NCBI GenBank assembly: GCA_007695005.1
Contig: REEQ01000091.1
Span: 1 to 64,000, forward strand
Reading direction: 5' to 3'
Source of the DNA: Wenzhouxiangellaceae bacterium
Lineage (GTDB): Bacteria; Pseudomonadota; Gammaproteobacteria; Xanthomonadales; Wenzhouxiangellaceae
Length of the DNA stretch: 64,000 nt
Shown here: positions 20,882-29,720 of the stretch, piece after piece
How the letters are laid out: the number at the start of each line of letters is the position of its first letter
How positions within the stretch are numbered: the stretch's first letter is position 1
Made by a program: the position numbers and the translations under genes
The notes under the pieces: model-generated
The model's input: only the letters and a program-made list of their open reading frames with translations
Database searches by the model: none
What the model was told of the DNA's origin: nothing

Positions 20882-21564
20882 GCGCTGACGAGATCAGCTG
20901 GCAGCCGCCACATCTGGCTGTGGCCGGCGGTGGTGACTTCCCCGTGCGCCATGTCTGGTGCGTAGGCCGGAATTATGCCGAGCATGCCCGTGAGATGGGC
21001 GTGGACCCTGACAAGTCCGATCCGGTGTTCTTTTCCAAGCCGGCTGCCAGCGCGCACCAACAGCAGCGGGTGCAGTATCCGGCGGCCACCGAGGAGCTGC
21101 ACCACGAGGTCGAGTTGGTGGTCTGTCTGGCAGAAGGTGGTCGCAATCTCGGCGCCGAGCAGTGGGCCGGGCGAATTTTCGGGTTCGCTGTCGGTGTTGA
21201 TTTGACCCGCCGCGATGTGCAGGCACGCTTCAAAAAGGCCGGCCAACCCTGGGAGCTGAGCAAGGGCTTTGACCAGGCGGCCCCGGTCGGTGTCATTGTC
21301 AGGGCAAGCGACTGGAGCCCGGATCCAGAGGCAGGCATAGAGCTGCAGGTCAACGGCATACTGCGCCAGCAGGCGACGCTAGGCGAAATGATCTGGAGTG
21401 TGCCCAAGCTGTTGGAGCGGCTGTCGCAGAATCTGACCCTGCATGCCGGTGATGTGCTGATGACGGGCACGCCGGCCGGGGTAGGTCCCCTGAAGGTCGA
21501 TGACCGGGTGCTTGCCCGAATCAGCGGTCTGCCGGTACTGGAGTTTTCCGTGCGCGGCGCTTGA
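20878..21564 (+). CDS. Fumarylacetoacetate hydrolase-family protein (YcgM-like)
   Basis: This 228-residue enzyme of the FAH superfamily has [15 protein letters not shown], the metal-ligand segment [10 protein letters not shown] and [14 protein letters not shown], followed by [14 protein letters not shown]. Close relatives are acylpyruvases or fumarylpyruvate hydrolases that cleave C-C bonds of 2,4-dioxo acids with Mg2+; oxaloacetate decarboxylase activity also occurs in the family. The start overlaps trpS by four bases, and the stop overlaps the first fluoride-channel gene (TGATG). No aromatic-degradation genes are nearby, so a metabolite clean-up role is more likely, as inference. Confidence 0.88.
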
Positions 21565-21956
21565 TGCCGGCGTTCACCACCCTTTTGCTGGTCATGCTGG
21601 CCGGCAGTGCCGGCGCCGTGGCTCGCCTGTCCGTGACGCGTCTTGGAGTGGCCTTGTTGGGACAAGGCTTTCCCTGGGGCACCCTGGCGGTCAACTTCAG
21701 CGGCGCATTGCTGGCCGGTCTGCTGGCCGGCGGCCTGTCCGCCTGGCTGGGGCTGGAGCCAGGATCCGGCGGCTGGAACATCCTGGTTTACGGTTTTCTC
21801 GGCAGCTACACGACGGTCTCGAGTCTGAGTCTGGAGTGGTTGCTGTTGCTGCGCGATGGCCGTGGACGGGCGGCCTGGGCCTACCTTGCACTGAGCCTTT
21901 GCGGCGGGGTGATGCTGGCGCTTTCAGGTCTGCTGGTGGCTGCTCAGCTGTCATGA
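21564..21956 (+). CDS. crcB: Fluoride channel subunit, CrcB/Fluc family (first of tandem pair)
   Basis: This 130-residue membrane protein has four hydrophobic helices. The Fluc pattern is present: AGSAGAVARL near the start, TLAVNFSGALLAG in helix 2 and GFLGSYTTVSSLSLE in the helix 3 break. In the last motif both phenylalanines that line the fluoride pore (TTFSxF) are replaced, giving V and L. That suggests a subunit with a vestigial half-pore that works only with a partner. The ATG at 21564 overlaps the upstream stop; a TTG one codon earlier is less likely. The gene overlaps the second copy by four bases. Confidence 0.85.
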   Translation: MPAFTTLLLVMLAGSAGAVARLSVTRLGVALLGQGFPWGTLAVNFSGALLAGLLAGGLSAWLGLEPGSGGWNILVYGFLGSYTTVSSLSLEWLLLLRDGRGRAAWAYLALSLCGGVMLALSGLLVAAQLS

Positions 21957-22369
21957 AGTTCATGCCGGGTTTGCGAGACTGCCTGTGGGTAGGTCTGGGT
22001 GGCGCGCTGGGCACTGGCCTGCGCTTTGTCTGTGCCATGGCCTGGCCACTGACCGATGTTGACAGCCTGCCGCTTGCCACCCTGGCGGTCAACGTGGCAG
22101 GTTCGGTTTTGATTGGAGTCTTCGCCGCGCTGTCGATGCGGCAGCACATCGAATTTGGCGCCTCCATCATGATGTTCCTGATGGTCGGATTCTGCGGTGG
22201 CCTGACCACTTTTTCCTTCGTCGGTCTGGAGTCGGCGCAGCTGGTGCACCAGGGCCAGTGGCAGATGCTCGCGATCTACCTTTTCCTGTCGCTGCTCGGC
22301 TGGCTGGGCGGAGTGGCGGCTGGCTACCGCATCACCCTGGCATTGATGCCGAACCGACCCGCATCCTGA
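21953..22369 (+). CDS. crcB: Fluoride channel subunit, CrcB/Fluc family (second of tandem pair)
   Basis: This 138-residue, four-helix Fluc homologue has GGALGTGLRF, TLAVNVAGSVLIG and GFCGGLTTFSFVGLE. Unlike its neighbour it keeps the first pore phenylalanine (TTF), but the second is Val. Fluc channels are dual-topology dimers that expel fluoride across the inner membrane. Two divergent genes in tandem usually form an antiparallel heterodimer, which fits the complementary loss of pore residues here. The ATG at 21953 overlaps the first copy by ATGA. No fluoride riboswitch-like element was recognised upstream of the run. Confidence 0.86.
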   Translation: MKFMPGLRDCLWVGLGGALGTGLRFVCAMAWPLTDVDSLPLATLAVNVAGSVLIGVFAALSMRQHIEFGASIMMFLMVGFCGGLTTFSFVGLESAQLVHQGQWQMLAIYLFLSLLGWLGGVAAGYRITLALMPNRPAS

Positions 22370-23280: not shown

Positions 23281-24492
23281 TCAGTTGCTGGTCAGCTGCT
23301 GAACCATGCGGAAACCGGCAATCCAGGTGCCGGCTGCCGACCCGAGGTTGGACAGGAAAAACACCACAAAGACATGCGAGACCCGGTTCCGGAACCAGCC
23401 GGACAGTCGGGTGACATCATCACGCAAGGTTTCGAAATCGGCCACGCGTGGCTTGCGCAGCCAGGCCTCGACGGCGCCGGTGACCATGCCGGCGCCGATG
23501 GTCGGGTTCAGCGAGGTCAACGGGGCGGCCAGCAAGGCGGTCAGTACGGTCAAGGGGTGAGCCCGGGCGATCAGTGCGCCCAACGCTGACAGACCGCCAT
23601 TGATCACCACCCAGGTCAGCACCAAAGCAAAACCCAGCTCCGGTGAGCGCGCGAAGCCGAAGCCAAAGCCGGTCAGCACGGCAACCAGAATCAGCCAGGG
23701 AATCGCCTTCAGCAGCCGCGACGGGGGCGGCATGCGGTTGAGCTCGTCCAGTCGCTCCGTCGTATTCTGCTCTTCGGCCAGTGCCCGGGCCGTGCCATCC
23801 AGGTGGCCGGCGCCGAGCACTGCCAGCACCCGGCGTCCGGATTGGCCCTTGTTTTCTTCCAGCAGGCGTGCGGCCATGAAGCGATCCCGCTCGGCGATCA
23901 GCGATTCGTACAGTTCAGGGGAGCTGTCCGAGAATTCGGTGAAGGTTTCGGTCAGCAGGTCGCCTTGTTTCAGGCGTTCGATGTCTTCCTCGGCGATCTC
24001 CTCGCGCGAGAACAGAGACAGGATCAAGCCGTTGACCATCACCCAGCGCTTCCAGGGCGCAAGGCGTCGGCTGGCGCGACGAAGGGTGATGCCGATCTCG
24101 CGGTCAATTAGTTGCAGCGGCAAACCGGCCCGGTCTGCCGCCTCAATTGCGGTTTTCATTTCGGCACCAGGCTCGATACCGAACTGATCGGCGATCCGAC
24201 GCTGATAGGCTGACAGCGCCAGCGACGCCATCATCATGCCGGCCTTGCCCTCGCGCAGTATCGAGAAGACATTCAGGTTGTGCCAGGCCGAGCGGTCAGT
24301 CAGTGCCTGGTGGCGCGATGCACACAGCTCGATGGCCACGGCGTCATAGTGACCGCTGGAGAGCAGCCGCTCGACGGCTTCGGCGCTGGTGCGAGACACG
24401 TGCGCCGTGCCCAGCAAGGTATATTCGACACCGTCGACGCTGAGTTGCCTGACCGGCTCATCGGCAAATAAGGTGTTCAGTTCCGACTGCAT
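23281..24492 (-). CDS. TraB/PrgY-family membrane protein
   Basis: This 403-residue protein has an N-terminal TraB domain (LLGTAHVSRTSAEAVERLL, DAVAIELCASRHQAL, and VLAVLGAGHLDG near 240) and a C-terminal half with several hydrophobic segments. The domain contains the conserved GTAH, ELC and GAGH motifs of the family. Enterococcal PrgY/TraB blocks peptide pheromone activity; the bacterial chromosomal homologues are uncharacterised, and a proteolytic or Tiki-like role has been suggested. The ATG at 24492 is preferred to an upstream TTG. It is divergent from the amidoligase operon, 81 bases away. Confidence 0.82.
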   Translation of the reverse strand: MQSELNTLFADEPVRQLSVDGVEYTLLGTAHVSRTSAEAVERLLSSGHYDAVAIELCASRHQALTDRSAWHNLNVFSILREGKAGMMMASLALSAYQRRIADQFGIEPGAEMKTAIEAADRAGLPLQLIDREIGITLRRASRRLAPWKRWVMVNGLILSLFSREEIAEEDIERLKQGDLLTETFTEFSDSSPELYESLIAERDRFMAARLLEENKGQSGRRVLAVLGAGHLDGTARALAEEQNTTERLDELNRMPPPSRLLKAIPWLILVAVLTGFGFGFARSPELGFALVLTWVVINGGLSALGALIARAHPLTVLTALLAAPLTSLNPTIGAGMVTGAVEAWLRKPRVADFETLRDDVTRLSGWFRNRVSHVFVVFFLSNLGSAAGTWIAGFRMVQQLTSN

Positions 24493-24573
24493 GAGGTCTC
24501 GGCCTGAAAAATCGAGCGGCAAGTTTAGCAGCTATGTCAGGCGATACCGGCCTGTCTGCATGGGGCCGCAGCG

Positions 24574-25344
24574 GTGAACCAAAGTGCGTGGCCGCGTTCA
24601 AAGCAGGCACTTCCGGGGAGCAAACACTTGATTGACCCGAACCATGCCGGCCGTGTGCTGGCAATCGAACCGCAGCCTGACTCGACCACCTGCGGACCGA
24701 CCTGCCTGCATGCGGTCTACCGGCACTTTGGCCGACCGTTGGCGCTGGCCAGCATCATCGAAGAAATCCACCGTCTGGATCATGGCGGCACGCTGGACGT
24801 TTTTCTCGCCAACCATGCGCTGGCCCGAGGATTCAAGGCCACTCTATGGACGTATAATCTCAAGGTTTTCGATCCAACCTGGTTTCGATCGCCTGGCCTG
24901 GATCTGGCCGCAAAGCTCAAGGAGCAGGCTCGCTTCAAACGCCGTGAAAAGCTGCGAATCGCTACCAGGGGCTACCTGGATTACCTGGCTGCCGGCGGTC
25001 GCATTCGCTATGCCGACCTCAATCGCGCCCTGCTCAGGCGCCTGCTGTCCAGTAACCAGCCCGTGCTGACCGGGCTCAGCGCAACCTATCTGTATCGTTC
25101 GGCCCGTGAGTGGGGCCCGGATGATGTCGATGACGATGTGCGCGGCGAACCAGTCGGCCATTTTGTCGTCCTGCAAGGCTACAATCGCGGCAGCCGTGAG
25201 GTCGGCGTTGCCGATCCCACCGACCCCAACCCTCAGGGCAGTCGCCATTACTGGGTGCATATCGATCGGGTAATTGGTGCCATCCTGCTGGGCGCGCTGA
25301 CCTACGACGCCAACCTGCTGGTGCTCAAGCCATGCGCCAACTGA
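24574..25344 (+). CDS. C39-like papain-fold peptidase, first gene of amidoligase operon
   Basis: This 256-residue protein shows a C39-like cysteine-peptidase pattern: Gln34 and catalytic Cys40 in PQPDSTTCGPTCLHAVYR, His196 in GHFVVLQGYN and Asp214 in VADPTDPN. It has no membrane segments, ABC domain or signal peptide, so it is a free-standing cytosolic enzyme and not a bacteriocin exporter. The frame opens with GTG at 24574; a TTG at 24628 would remove 18 poorly conserved residues. Its last 13 bases overlap the ATP-grasp gene. It probably cleaves or trims the product or target of the ligases that follow, which is inference. Confidence 0.78.
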   Translation: MNQSAWPRSKQALPGSKHLIDPNHAGRVLAIEPQPDSTTCGPTCLHAVYRHFGRPLALASIIEEIHRLDHGGTLDVFLANHALARGFKATLWTYNLKVFDPTWFRSPGLDLAAKLKEQARFKRREKLRIATRGYLDYLAAGGRIRYADLNRALLRRLLSSNQPVLTGLSATYLYRSAREWGPDDVDDDVRGEPVGHFVVLQGYNRGSREVGVADPTDPNPQGSRHYWVHIDRVIGAILLGALTYDANLLVLKPCAN

Positions 25345-26795
25345 TCATTGTCAGTCGTCGTGAAGACTGGCCGCTGGATGTGCCCGGCGTGGAGATTGTG
25401 ACCGCTCGCGATTACCTGACCAGGCCGGAATGGTCGACGTTGAAGTCCGCGCGCATATACAACCTGTGTCGTTCTTATCGCTATCAGGCCAACGGTTACT
25501 ACGTCTCGCTGCTGGCCGCAGCGCGCGGCCACAAGCCGCTGCCAACAATCGGCACCATCCAGGATTTCAAGTCCAGTAATGTGGTCAGAATCGTCTCAGC
25601 CGACCTGGCCCGCCTGATCGAGATCAGCCTGCGCCCCCTGCAGTCGACCCACTTCACCTTGAGCATTTACTTTGGCCGCAATCTGGCCCAACGCCATCAG
25701 CGTCTGGCCACGGCCCTGTTCAACCTGTTTCCCGCACCCTTGCTGCGCGCCGAATTCCAGCGCAGCGACGAGCAGTGGCTGTTGTCGCGCCTCTCGCCCA
25801 TTGGCTACAGTGACATACCCGAGCAGCACCACGAGTTTGCCGCCGAAGCCGCAACCCTGTACTTCTCTGGCAAACGGCCGCGCACGCGAACCAAGCGCAA
25901 CAGTCGCTTCGATCTGGCGATCCTGGTCAATCCGGCCGAGCCCAACCCACCATCGGATGAAAAGGCCATTATCCGCTTCGAACAGGCCGGTGAGGCGGTG
26001 GGCTTCAACGTCGAGCGCATTGGACCGGATGAAATCGGTCGCCTGGCAGAATTCGATGCGCTGTTTATCCGTGAAACGACGGCGGTCAATCATCACAGCT
26101 TTCGCATTGCGCGCCGAGCTGCGGCCGAGGGCCTGGTAGTGATTGACGATCCCGAATCGATCCTGCGCTGTACCAACAAGGTCTACCTGGCCGAGCTGCT
26201 GGAACGCCATGGCGTGCCGGCGCCGCGCACCTTGCTGGTGCATCGCGACAACGCCGACCAGATCGAGGCCAGGCTCGGTCTGCCGGTAGTGCTCAAGCAG
26301 CCTGACAGCGCCTTTTCCCTGGGCGTGATCAAGGTGCATGATCGGGACCAGCTGAAAAACAGCGTCAACGCCTTGCTCAAGCGCTCGGATCTTGTCGTGG
26401 CTCAGGAATATCTGCCGACTGACTTTGACTGGCGCGTAGGCTTGATCGATGGCAGGCCGCTGTATGTGTGCCGCTATCACATGGCCCGCGGCCATTGGCA
26501 GATCATCCAGCGCGACGGAGAGGCCAGCCGGGAAGGTGAGGCCGACTGTCTCAGCGTTGGTGAAGCACCGGAAGCCGTCGTCGCCACCGCGGTCAAGGCA
26601 GCCGCCCTGATCGGGCAGGGCCTGTACGGCGTCGACCTGAAGGAAGTCGATGGCCGTGTTGTGGTCATAGAAGTCAATGACAACCCCTCGATCGACGCCG
26701 GCGTCGAGGATGCCGTCCTCAAGGGCGCACTCTACAGAGAAATCATGGGCGTCATGTTCAAGCGGGTGATGGCCCGCAAACTTGCCCCTGGCTGA
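25332..26795 (+). CDS. RimK-type ATP-grasp ligase with RLAN N-terminal domain
   Basis: This 487-residue protein has an N-terminal RLAN-type domain (about 1-150, with LCRSYRYQANGYYVSLLAAA) and a C-terminal ATP-grasp domain (about 190-480). In the latter, LPVVLKQPDSAFSLGV supplies the ATP-binding Lys and glycine-loop equivalents, and VVVIEVNDNPSIDAG supplies the Mg2+-binding Glu and Asn. ATP-grasp enzymes of this type join a carboxylate to an amine through an acyl phosphate, as in RimK glutamylation. The ATG overlaps the C39-like gene by 13 bases, and the GCS2 gene follows after 27 bases. The substrates are unknown. Confidence 0.85.
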   Translation: MRQLIIVSRREDWPLDVPGVEIVTARDYLTRPEWSTLKSARIYNLCRSYRYQANGYYVSLLAAARGHKPLPTIGTIQDFKSSNVVRIVSADLARLIEISLRPLQSTHFTLSIYFGRNLAQRHQRLATALFNLFPAPLLRAEFQRSDEQWLLSRLSPIGYSDIPEQHHEFAAEAATLYFSGKRPRTRTKRNSRFDLAILVNPAEPNPPSDEKAIIRFEQAGEAVGFNVERIGPDEIGRLAEFDALFIRETTAVNHHSFRIARRAAAEGLVVIDDPESILRCTNKVYLAELLERHGVPAPRTLLVHRDNADQIEARLGLPVVLKQPDSAFSLGVIKVHDRDQLKNSVNALLKRSDLVVAQEYLPTDFDWRVGLIDGRPLYVCRYHMARGHWQIIQRDGEASREGEADCLSVGEAPEAVVATAVKAAALIGQGLYGVDLKEVDGRVVVIEVNDNPSIDAGVEDAVLKGALYREIMGVMFKRVMARKLAPG

Positions 26796-26822
26796 TCATC
26801 TTCAACCTGGAATGAATGGACC

Positions 26823-28070
26823 ATGCCCAGCCTAGAGCCCTTGGTTGTTCCGTCTCCGCTGCATGCCTTTACCGGCTATGGCATCGAGCTTGAATACATG
26901 GTTGTCGATGCCAAAAGCCTCAAGGTCCGGGCGCTGGCGGATCGGCTGCTTGTCGATAGCCAGGGGCAGGTGGTCAACGAACTGGCGCACGGCGAACTGG
27001 CCTGGTCCAACGAGCTGGTAGCTCATGTCATCGAGCTCAAGACCAATGGTCCGGCCGACTCGCTGCCGCCCCTGGCAGAGCGCTTTCATCGCGATATTGT
27101 GGATATCAATCGCCGCCTTGCCGAGTTCCAGGCCTGCCTGATGCCGACCGCGATGCACCCGATGTTCAACCCCGGTCTGGAAACCCGACTGTGGCAGTAC
27201 GGCCAGAACGAAATCTACGCGGCCTACGACCGGATTTTTGATTGCCGCGGCCATGGCTGGTCCAACCTGCAGTCCATGCATATCAACCTGCCGTTCCATG
27301 ATGACGATGAGTTTCGCCGCCTGCACGCCGCGATTCGGGTCGCCTTGCCGCTGATTCCGGCCCTGTCGGCCGCCTCGCCGCTGGAGGAGGGACGGCGTTC
27401 GGCATGGCTGAACGGGCGCCTGGCCTACTACCGCAACAACCAGCGTGCCATTCCCGAGATTTCCGGGCTGGTAGTACCGGAGGCGGTCACCGATATCAAT
27501 GACTATCATGAGCGCATACTCGCGCCGATGTACCGGGCCATCGGCCCTCATGATCCGGACAGCATCCTGGCGGATGACTGGCTCAATTCACGTGCCGCCA
27601 TCGCCCGATTCGAGCGCCAGACCATAGAAATACGGATCATCGATCTGCAGGAGTGTCCGGCCATGGACCTGGCCATCGCCGAGGCTGTGGTGGCGCTGGT
27701 TCAGGCCCTGTATGAGGAGCGACTGGGCAGCTTCGACGCCCAGCAGACCATTGCCACCGAAGCATTGGCCGACCAGCTGTGGGCAGCGGCTGCCGCCGGC
27801 GGGCAGGCGGTTCTGGAGGCACCAGGTCTGGCCGCGCTGATGGACTTGTCTGCCGGGTTGAAATTGTCCGAGGTCTGGTCCAGCCTGCTTGCCGGCCCTC
27901 TGAAAACCAGCCCTGAAGCCGCCGGTCGCCTGGAGCTGATCCTGAGCCAGGGCAGTCTGGCCGAGCGCATCGTCCGCACCCTGGGTGATGCGCCTGATCA
28001 GGCCGCCATCGAGCGTGTATACCGGGACTTGATCGAATGTCTGGCCGACAACCGCGCCTATCGGGGCTGA
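26823..28070 (+). CDS. GCS2-family carboxylate-amine ligase
   Basis: This 415-residue protein is related to glutamate-cysteine ligase type 2 (YbdK-like). GIELEYMVVD supplies the Glu-x-Glu metal ligands, LQSMHINLPF is a central conserved strand and TIEIRIIDLQECP ends the active site. Such enzymes make an amide from a carboxylate and an amine with ATP. The product is unlikely to be ordinary glutathione because the context is a RimK-type ligase, a peptidase and an amidohydrolase. The ATG at 26823 has GGA-rich sequence upstream. The 3' end overlaps the next gene by 34 bases. Confidence 0.85.
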   Translation: MPSLEPLVVPSPLHAFTGYGIELEYMVVDAKSLKVRALADRLLVDSQGQVVNELAHGELAWSNELVAHVIELKTNGPADSLPPLAERFHRDIVDINRRLAEFQACLMPTAMHPMFNPGLETRLWQYGQNEIYAAYDRIFDCRGHGWSNLQSMHINLPFHDDDEFRRLHAAIRVALPLIPALSAASPLEEGRRSAWLNGRLAYYRNNQRAIPEISGLVVPEAVTDINDYHERILAPMYRAIGPHDPDSILADDWLNSRAAIARFERQTIEIRIIDLQECPAMDLAIAEAVVALVQALYEERLGSFDAQQTIATEALADQLWAAAAAGGQAVLEAPGLAALMDLSAGLKLSEVWSSLLAGPLKTSPEAAGRLELILSQGSLAERIVRTLGDAPDQAAIERVYRDLIECLADNRAYRG

Positions 28071-28744
28071 TCACGGCCGAGCATGCCAGCCGCCGGGTGC
28101 CGGCGCGCTGGCGTGGGCTTTTTGCCGAACAGCCGGCAGTGCTGTCCAGTCATCGGGCCTGGGACCCGGGCACCGACATGCTGGCACGGGCGCTCTCAGA
28201 TTCGCTGCAGGCGCCTCTGCTGCGCGGTCGGGTAACGCGGCTGCTGGTCGACCTGAATCGATCTCGGGGTCACCCGGCGCAGTTCAGTGAGTTCAGCCGG
28301 CGTCTGGAGCGGCGCGAGCAACAGGCCCTGATGGAATGCTACTGGCTACCGCACTGGCAGGCCTATGCCGATGCGCTGACGTCTTTGCCTGGCCGCATCG
28401 TGCATCTGGCCTGCCACAGCTTCGCACCGATCATGGACGGGCGCGAGCGACCGGTGGACATCGGCTTGTTGTATGACCCGGCGAGAGACCGCGAACGACG
28501 CTGGTGCGAGCTGCTGGCCAGCTGCTTGAATAAGCATCTGCCCAACTGCAGGGTTCGGCGCAACCAGCCGTATCGGGGAACAGCGAACGGGCTTGGTCAG
28601 CAGCACAGAAAGTGGCTGGATGATAATCGCCTGCTGACCGTTGAGCTCGAACTACGATCCGACTGGGCGCTGCGTCGCGACATCCGGGCTGCTGTCCTTG
28701 CTGCTTGCGTTGAGGCCTTTCCTGGCGCTGCGACGATTGACTGA
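28037..28744 (+). CDS. N-formylglutamate amidohydrolase-family protein
   Basis: This 235-residue protein of the N-formylglutamate amidohydrolase (NFGA) family has ITAEHASRRVP, SSHRAWDPGTDMLARAL, VDLNRSRGHP and HLACHSFAP, the last holding a likely metal-binding His, then LTVELELRSD near the end. Family members hydrolyse the amide of N-formyl-Glu in histidine breakdown, but no hut genes are nearby. In this operon it more likely removes an acyl or glutamyl group from the ligase product. The 34-base overlap with the GCS2 gene shows coupling. It converges on the GDPD-like gene with only five bases between stops. Confidence 0.82.
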   Translation: MSGRQPRLSGLITAEHASRRVPARWRGLFAEQPAVLSSHRAWDPGTDMLARALSDSLQAPLLRGRVTRLLVDLNRSRGHPAQFSEFSRRLERREQQALMECYWLPHWQAYADALTSLPGRIVHLACHSFAPIMDGRERPVDIGLLYDPARDRERRWCELLASCLNKHLPNCRVRRNQPYRGTANGLGQQHRKWLDDNRLLTVELELRSDWALRRDIRAAVLAACVEAFPGAATID

Positions 28745-28749
28745 CAGGA

Positions 28750-29625
28750 TCAGTGGCCGTCAGGCCCAGGCACCAGGCAGTCTGTGATCACGCCAGTGAC
28801 GCATTCAGGCAGTGCTTCCATGCGCTGCCTGTCGTTGACGGTGAACACCCAGATCGCAAAGCCCTGGTTGATCAGGGCCTGCAAATGGGGCTCATCGGTT
28901 CCGGACCGCAATCGGCGTTGGTCGAGCACGACCAGGTCGAGATGCTGTCCGGCAAGGCCTGCCGGCAGGGCATTCAGTGGCCATCGAGGGACATAGTTGG
29001 CCCATGCCACCCGGCCATAGCCGAGGCGGCGGGCCAGGCCGATCTCCTCGATGGTAAACACCTGGGCAACAACACGCTGCACCAGCGGGCCCAGCGCTCT
29101 GGCCAGGTCCTGCAGTCCGGCAGCGTTGTCCTGCTTGATGTCGGTGACCAGCCAGGCCTCGGGGTGAACCTGCAGCCAGGCACGCAGGCGCCGCAGGGTG
29201 ATCACCGTCAAGTCGCCGCGCATGCGCAGTGAGGTCATCAGGCCTGAGCTCAGTGCGCGCCGTGGTTGCAGCGCCGCCAGCATCTGTTCTTTCAGCGGCA
29301 GGCCAGACAGGTCGAACCAGCGCATCAGGGTGGGGCCCCAGTCATGCAGACCGATCCAGCTGCCGTCGGGCGTAGGCTGCAGGTCAAACTCGAAATAACG
29401 AACACCCATCGCGTGCCATTGGTCCAGGCTTTCCAGCGCGTTCGGATAGCTGCCGATGGCGCTGCCGCCGCAGGCATGGGCAATCAAGGTTTTCGGTGTG
29501 GAAACGGTCTCGAAGTCCAGCCTGCTCTCTCTGCGCCAGGCCCGACGCGTGCGCTGGCGCCAGATGACCCAGGCGGTGGCCAGGATCAGTAACAGCATCA
29601 GGGGAAGGCTCAGAAGCAGGCTCAT
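28750..29625 (-). CDS. Glycerophosphodiester phosphodiesterase-like membrane-anchored protein
   Basis: This 291-residue protein has one N-terminal membrane helix (about 1-22) followed by a TIM-barrel GDPD-like domain. Visible motifs are LIAHACGGSAIGSYPNALES, RYFEFDLQPTPDG and GLHDWG, giving the catalytic His pair and the Glu-x-Asp metal site. The Arg that normally follows the first His (HRG) is Ala here (HACGG), so activity or substrate may be unusual. It probably acts on phospholipid head groups or their glycerophosphodiesters at the membrane. The ATG at 29625 has AAGG upstream. The gene is divergent from gyrA. Confidence 0.78.
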   Translation of the reverse strand: MSLLLSLPLMLLLILATAWVIWRQRTRRAWRRESRLDFETVSTPKTLIAHACGGSAIGSYPNALESLDQWHAMGVRYFEFDLQPTPDGSWIGLHDWGPTLMRWFDLSGLPLKEQMLAALQPRRALSSGLMTSLRMRGDLTVITLRRLRAWLQVHPEAWLVTDIKQDNAAGLQDLARALGPLVQRVVAQVFTIEEIGLARRLGYGRVAWANYVPRWPLNALPAGLAGQHLDLVVLDQRRLRSGTDEPHLQALINQGFAIWVFTVNDRQRMEALPECVTGVITDCLVPGPDGH

Positions 29626-29720
29626 CGGCAACCTTGTATGACCGCTGGGGAGGCCTGGCTCCGAGATCGTTGCCCGGGCCAGCTCAGAGACGTCATATGG
29701 TATCATTTCGGTCTTGTTGC

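Follow-up and report, generated by a model that had tools for sequence, protein, structure and literature searches.

What might a bacterium make with two adjacent ligases encoded between two predicted amide-cleaving enzymes? The question is raised by a stretch of 64,000 nucleotides from a Wenzhouxiangellaceae bacterium (assembly GCA_007695005.1, contig REEQ01000091.1; the whole stretch is called the window below), which carries at positions 24574-28744 the genes for a Peptidase C39-like protein (C39), an ATP-grasp ligase with an RLAN domain (RLAN ligase), a GCS2-type ligase and an amidohydrolase of the FGase family (Table 1). An original prediction from the letters alone had described these genes as an amidoligase operon for making and trimming a peptide or tag. 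Its layout, four open reading frames (ORFs) on one strand that overlap by 13 and 34 bases and are once separated by 27 bases, is accurate, and all four of its family names score above curated Pfam cut-offs. We give a probability of about one half to the reading that the set encodes a non-ribosomal pathway in which two ligases build a small peptide-like metabolite bearing a cap.

The genes were compared across 191 RLAN loci from three samples. Sample (a) holds the loci of the best 80 among 88 ligase homologues, all in named genomes; sample (b) holds 60 of the 62 matches other than the window's own among 274 surveyed genomes from its class (63 of which have an RLAN match by Pfam, one per genome), with G151 and G260 left out; and sample (c) holds 51 of the 53 matches among 199 genomes of the planctomycete phylum of L064, the other two being L064 itself and L047, both in sample (a). 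Loci at contig ends were kept, and only one ligase occurs twice (L219 and L107). Neighbours were counted within 2.5 kb by profiles built in this analysis, which may miss distant versions. RLAN is linked to GCS2 at 105 loci, with C39 near in 98 of them, FGase in 76 and all four families present in 73; some of the C39 and FGase absences fall at contig ends. All 73 four-gene loci lie on one strand, and because 72 of them keep the order C39-RLAN-GCS2-FGase (in the odd one, L221, RLAN and GCS2 match the same ORF), the four-gene set is conserved far beyond chance.

The loci come from Gammaproteobacteria, Planctomycetota, Myxococcota, Gemmatimonadota, Acidobacteria, and others (carriers include Aromatoleum at L053 and L109 and a Stieleria isolate at L065), so the co-occurrence elsewhere to which the original prediction looked is both widespread and fixed in order. 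Its combination of two makers and two breakers of amides also holds, with the amendment that the breakers are optional. When first start codons are taken, the 34-base overlap between FGase and the end of GCS2 is the same in 13 of the 73 four-gene loci, both in planctomycetes and in relatives of the window. Pairwise distances of the four proteins correlate with r of 0.56-0.81 over 75 loci (the maximum of 500 shuffles was 0.19), which we take as support, not proof, because shared species history contributes to these values.

The seat beside the RLAN ligase is not reserved for GCS2. GCS2 occupies it at 105 of the 191 loci (57 + 11 + 37 in the three samples) and one GNAT family at 72 (17 + 43 + 12), and the two never occur together. 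Neither partner was found at 14 loci, five with C39 only and nine with none; counting the repeated ligase once gives 104 GCS2, 72 GNAT, five C39-only and nine empty loci. Four of the empty loci (L115, L142, L095, L062) have less than 0.5 kb on at least one side, and in L171, which was scored as empty, an ORF upstream resembles a GNAT by eye. Three C39-only loci (L039, L043, L153) stop right after the ligase, and L041 holds a GCS2 remnant. At this last locus C39, RLAN and FGase are open, and the 101-aa fragment in the GCS2 place (2650-2952) is a decayed gene or an assembly error.

A quick RLAN tree of 122 proteins, 114 of them labelled, needs three partner changes, against a mean of 36.8 in shuffled labels (0 of 500 shuffles as low), and its starred branches force at least two. 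Single proteins join RLAN to GCS2 in L107 and L111 (by Pfam) and in L217, L218, L219 and L221 (by our profiles), and GNAT to RLAN in L096 (by Pfam, in the order GNAT-RLAN-ATP-grasp) and in L212 and L214 (by our profiles). Given this mutual exclusion, these fusions and the few changes on the tree, two unrelated enzymes, GCS2 and GNAT, take the same seat beside one ligase. The original prediction lacked this acetyltransferase alternative, which the window does not contain. An apparent C39-RLAN fusion in L050 and L078, suggested by nested ORFs, was rejected, as that frame holds no C39 domain. In L222-L227, from the planctomycete phylum, the RLAN profile matches two neighbouring ORFs, weakly and then more strongly, possibly a split form of the ligase; a GNAT gene adjoins the double ORFs in five of the six.

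The GNAT-type loci usually carry a papain-like domain as well. In the class sample the GNAT ORF is at least 330 aa long at 39 of 43 loci, enough for a fused papain-like DUF3335 domain, and L099, from an Alteromonas strain, is an example of the fusion by Pfam. An hhalign comparison pairs this domain with the window's C39 protein (probability 95.4, E 1.9e-8), the Gln, Cys, His and Asp being in register; the domain's Q161, C167, H303 and D319 are invariant in 12 of 12 sequences. According to the available part of PMC10318531, which cites Iyer et al. 2009, DUF3335 is often fused to GNAT domains, and it is these GNAT domains that might serve as peptide ligases or acetylases.

A candidate fifth gene recurs at five of the 105 GCS2-type loci, which are only distantly related. 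It stands directly beside or inside the set (Table 1) and encodes 514-521 aa, in which a GNAT part is joined with one of carbon-nitrogen hydrolase type (95-124 bits for CN_hydrolase against a cut-off of 23). At E 1e-10 none of the 72 loci of GNAT type has the fusion, and in NCBIfam it matched models only far below cut-off, nitrilase and deaminated glutathione amidase among them. It is possibly an optional fifth member of the set, and it adds one more amide-cleaving enzyme to the theme.

Each of the four proteins keeps the residues expected of a working enzyme. The alignments draw on part of each non-redundant set (37 of 47 rows for GCS2, 37 of 47 for C39, 28 of 38 for FGase and 45 of 98 for RLAN). 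In the RLAN ligase K283, K322, D435, E447 and N449 are invariant in 45 of 45 sequences, in GCS2- and GNAT-partnered types alike; in the GCS2 protein E22, E24, E64, E71, R199, E269 and R271 are invariant in 37 of 37, with R199 and the E269-x-R271 motif aligning to YbdK and R199 also to plant glutamate-cysteine ligase. We take these positions to be binders of metal, ATP or glutamate. The loss of active-site residues from the ATP-grasp or GCS2 protein, which would have undone the original prediction, is thus nowhere seen among the aligned relatives. The expected catalytic Q34, C40, H196 and D214 of the C39 protein recur unchanged in all 37 relatives of its alignment and in all 47 non-redundant sequences, as do the metal-site-like E15, H16, H39, D43, H123, H127 and E203 of the FGase protein in 28 of 28.

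On Pfam scores together with these residues, the ligase belongs to the RLAN ATP-grasp family (PF14401 RLAN 163 bits, cut-off 25; PF08443 RimK 40.5 bits, cut-off 21), with conserved ATP/Mg-type positions; the third protein to the GCS2 ligase family, with its acidic and Arg positions; and the fourth to FGase (PF05013). The first is Peptidase C39-like, with its Gln-Cys-His-Asp set and a modelled papain fold, and proteolysis is its predicted activity. NCBIfam names none of the four above cut-off: models of RimK, LysX and YbdK type matched far below it, and the two hydrolases had no match. The best match of the GCS2 protein is of YbdK type (NF010039, 66 against a cut-off of 371 bits; TIGR02050, 60 against 176), and the ligase reaches 73.2 of the 143.4 bits set for the RimK alpha-L-glutamate ligase (TIGR00768) and does not match NAGGN synthetase (TIGR03103) at E 1e-3. 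NCBIfam includes a model for HutG, the N-formylglutamate deformylase of histidine catabolism; the FGase protein matched none of the NCBIfam models.

Structure prediction agrees with these assignments and likens the fold of the ligase to that of LysX, ArgX and RimK. Its model (pLDDT 87.7) superposes over residues ~193-481 with LysX (Z 29.2), ArgX (28.9), RimK (27.6) and glutathione synthetase (22.6), the first 190 residues being barely covered. In this C-terminal fold and in its ATP/Mg-type residues, whose roles we presume from the family, the window ligase resembles RimK, LysX and ArgX, and it differs from them in its extra RLAN domain. The RimK stretch FRSNLHRGG aligns with the RLAN profile at low confidence only, and the His-Trp of LysX aligns with the invariant H388-W389 of the RLAN ligase; we read this as pointing to a different substrate. 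The C39 model (mean pLDDT 87.6) is closest to the exporter peptidases PCAT1 (Z 16.0, 136 residues, 1.9 A) and ComA (Z 15.8); phytochelatin synthase (2bu3; Z 15.1, 170 residues, 2.7 A) is within 1 Z of them.

A pathway consistent with these results would begin with GCS2, which may activate a carboxylate with ATP, probably the side-chain carboxylate of glutamate judging from its family, and couple it, as a cap, to another building block through the latter's amino group. The RLAN/ATP-grasp ligase, by the likeness of its fold, would then activate a carboxylate of the capped intermediate and add a further amino acid in the manner of LysX, ArgX or RimK. Finally, the C39 enzyme might cut or transfer the new amide and the FGase-family enzyme might remove the acyl cap, so that the product is turned over or matured; we infer each of these chemical steps and also their order. 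Because L139 has only GCS2 and RLAN, and L121 and L132 only GNAT and RLAN, the minimal core is the ligase with either partner, and C39 and FGase would be optional enzymes of trimming or recycling, C39 alternatively a transferase. By analogy, the simplest reading of the order is that the cap would come first and the extension second, because GCS2 and GNAT chemistry share the acylation of an amine and because Ngg proceeds in this way for the osmolyte NAGGN. In the available part of PMC8070244, Ngg both N-acetylates glutamine and makes the peptide bond of NAGGN.

Several observations weigh against this pathway. C39 is absent beside seven and FGase beside 29 of the 105 GCS2-type loci, and the correlated distances of the four proteins owe something to their common species history. 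Five loci (L079, L147, L171, L188, L222) lack a partner by profile although each flank spans 2.8 kb or more, and L163 is complete with C39 alone. The exclusivity of the partners is limited to one GNAT family, because the five GCS2-type loci with the candidate fifth gene carry a different GNAT. A reaction like that of RimK or LysX is a guess at substrate for the RLAN ligase, given the low confidence at which FRSNLHRGG aligned, and family and fold are what suggest the product and substrates altogether. In addition, the GNAT type would fit a mark on a protein equally well, because in E. coli RimI and RimK modify proteins.

We think it rather unlikely that the set modifies protein termini. The RimK-like ligase would then extend a C-terminus, GCS2 or GNAT would modify another group on the same target, and the C39 and FGase enzymes would remove the marks. 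LysX, ArgX and RimK, the enzymes closest to the ATP-grasp half (Z 27-29), act on proteins, as does RimI in E. coli; of the two GNAT parts compared with the RimI model (cut-off 86.4 bits) that of L125 lies above it at 88.8; and an ordinary cellular protein as target would need no dedicated carrier. Set against this, the GNAT part of L096 lies below the cut-off at 77.3, the GCS2 enzymes that are known act on small molecules, and no recurrent target gene emerged beside the set when the window was clustered with the 80 homologue loci. Patchy presence would also ill suit the modification of a core protein. In the window's genus 12 of 25 genomes have RLAN, and 16 of 41 relatives (own genome included in both counts; many of the genomes are incomplete), while it is missing from G509, G515, G517 and G521 at 98-99% completeness and from all 14 well-known control genomes. 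Because presence is so patchy among close relatives, the gene set looks like an accessory and probably transferred unit.

The combination of GCS2, ATP-grasp and papain-fold proteins is that of glutathione and phytochelatin systems, whose folds and logical order (GshA, GshB, phytochelatin synthase) it matches. GCS2 would then make gamma-glutamyl-Cys or a similar compound, RLAN would be the second ligase, and C39 would act like phytochelatin synthase, to which its model fits about as well as to exporter peptidases, with no match of its sequence to PF05023 at E 1e-3. We consider this improbable. The sequences lie far from the corresponding models: the ligase scores 23 bits against a cut-off of 299 for GshB (TIGR01380), the GCS2 protein 44, 32 and 27 bits for the glutamate-cysteine ligase models NF010041, NF010043 and NF010045 (cut-offs 332-409). 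A swap to an acetyltransferase would ill fit glutathione, and the same genome encodes elsewhere a GshB (394 bits) and, in a 506-aa frame, a second GCS2 ligase that scores 302 bits with Pfam GCS2 and is most likely GshA. Among 28 genomes with a GCS2-type set, which hold 28 of the 57 GCS2-type homologue loci, GshB matches above cut-off in 11, below it in 11 and not at all in six, sub-cut-off matches being weakly informative (eight of the 14 control genomes match, only three above cut-off); given this mixture, the set shows no clear pattern either of replacing glutathione or of accompanying it. Plain glutathione synthesis was rejected as the main explanation on these grounds, being unlikely where dedicated enzymes are encoded elsewhere in the genome, and the cysteinyl-type product of the original prediction is not borne out. 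Another frame of the own genome, 659 aa long, contains a third GCS2-like match, a weak one of 23 bits (G000:C48:44555-45142).

That the papain-like enzyme finishes assembly by transferring an acyl or peptidyl group, in the way of CtaG in the closthioamide pathway, we regard as quite improbable. CtaG (9quz) is found by Foldseek with the C39 model at E 1.8e-3, and the Gln-Cys-His-Asp set is invariant. CtaG ranks only 34th there, however, and is not among the 50 matches listed by Z, exporter peptidases and phytochelatin synthase being closer folds. In the available part of PMC6772006, CtaG is a peptidyl transferase, and the closthioamide pathway also has an ATP-grasp protein. No C39 was detected at the L139, L121 and L132 loci (genes elsewhere in those genomes were not searched), so the enzyme may be dispensable for assembly, provided that these genomes carry no copy at another site.

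A ribosomally made precursor was also considered. Among 1329 ORFs of 20-85 aa, taken within 700 bases of loci with C39, RLAN and GCS2 or in their gaps, no family recurred widely; the 12 largest groups were inspected. The largest, with five loci, comes from close relatives and for the most part sits opposite TraB, and a group from four distant loci was discarded as it lies opposite a longer gene, the GNAT/carbon-nitrogen-hydrolase fusion. The absence of a visible carrier peptide gene, remarked on by the original prediction, thus persists in this comparison. The set accordingly lacks the precursor gene beside an ATP-grasp ligase that marks a graspetide (RiPP) locus. C39 exporter proteins are the most common family at graspetide ATP-grasp loci in the available part of PMC8939145; the C39 likeness speaks in favour of such a locus, whereas the window's C39 protein has no exporter part.

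Several described systems share elements with this set. The NAGGN operon (PA3459-PA3461 / asnO-ngg) contains a peptidase gene, and its Ngg joins acetylation to ligation in one protein, as the GNAT-RLAN-ATP-grasp fusion of L096 would (PMC8070244, available part); in contrast, the window set has no AsnO-type amidotransferase and has GCS2 in place of the acetyltransferase. In the portion available of PMC12239564, RimK modifies a protein, the Pseudomonas rim and rlo operons likewise encode an ATP-grasp protein beside a peptidase, and genetic evidence supports joint action of the rlo genes; those peptidases are aspartic and retropepsin-like, and that portion names no GCS2, C39 or FGase partner. A search of the open literature for RLAN ligases and for this operon yielded nothing that we recognised as describing either (the available parts of PMC2922099 and PMC4431377 are silent on the set), and such absence is not proof. 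Operons of this general kind are not new: Iyer et al. in 2009 reportedly predicted amidoligase operons in which ATP-grasp and other peptide ligases are linked to peptidases of unrelated folds. The alternation of GCS2 and GNAT may be new, unless it is already in that survey.

Table 1 Positions of the four-gene set and its flanking genes in the window, and of the candidate fifth gene at other loci
Feature	Position	Strand	Remarks
C39-like (papain-fold) cysteine peptidase	24574..25344	+	256 aa; PF13529 Peptidase_C39_2 38 bits (cut-off 24)
RLAN + LysX/RimK-like ATP-grasp ligase	25332..26795	+	487 aa; RLAN residues 25-173, ATP-grasp ~193-481
GCS2-type carboxylate-amine ligase	26823..28070	+	415 aa; PF04107 GCS2 79 bits (cut-off 21)
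FGase-family amidohydrolase	28037..28744	+	235 aa; PF05013 FGase 88 bits (cut-off 28.9)
TraB-family gene, divergent, 5' boundary	23281..24522	-	Pfam 96.5 bits
GDPD-family gene, convergent, 3' boundary	28750..29706	-	Pfam 31.6 bits
GNAT/CN-hydrolase fusion	L155:7845-9398		upstream of set
GNAT/CN-hydrolase fusion	L058:1-558		upstream of set; cut by contig end
GNAT/CN-hydrolase fusion	L184:8759-10321		between GCS2 and FGase
GNAT/CN-hydrolase fusion	L077:10925-12466		downstream, in FGase place
GNAT/CN-hydrolase fusion	L059:11411-12964		convergent

The boundaries of the set are formed by genes that do not consistently travel with it. The original prediction had offered the divergent TraB-family gene as a possible partner, a suggestion that the loci do not support: its profile matches at 6 of 112 scanned loci (30 of them short, about 3 kb), all Wenzhouxiangella-like and with the window counted twice, as L001 and WIN, and TraB is present in 4 of the 9 Wenzhouxiangella-like loci with at least 1.7 kb upstream, window excluded. 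The GDPD-family gene, which converges on the operon with its stop end five bases away, was likewise rejected as a partner, as it occurs at two of the 112 loci only, the window and L037. Within the set, the first gene likely starts downstream of 24574, because model residues 1-16 are of low confidence and the profile of the relatives begins at about residue 17. The RLAN and FGase starts agree with the relatives, M1 being nearly invariant, and 28037 is the sole ATG/GTG/TTG ahead of the conserved FGase motif. A promoter and terminator scan gave no signal above shuffles. Upstream, two adjacent small ORFs for membrane proteins (21561-22369) form a candidate CrcB-type pair by eye.

If the pathway proposed here is correct, with GCS2 or GNAT capping and the RLAN ligase extending, a common bacterial metabolite or protein mark would be missing from current knowledge: RLAN ligases are present in roughly one in four of the genomes sampled, 63 of 274 in the window's class and 53 of 199 in the planctomycete phylum. 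It is possible, and we put this forward only tentatively, that small capped peptides made through a single RLAN-ligase backbone step form a widespread, so far undescribed class, with a gamma-glutamyl-type cap where the partner is GCS2, an N-acetyl cap where it is GNAT, and a related papain-like processing enzyme in both. The intermediate offered to this ligase step would then differ by lineage, being of gamma-glutamyl type in one and acetylated in another.

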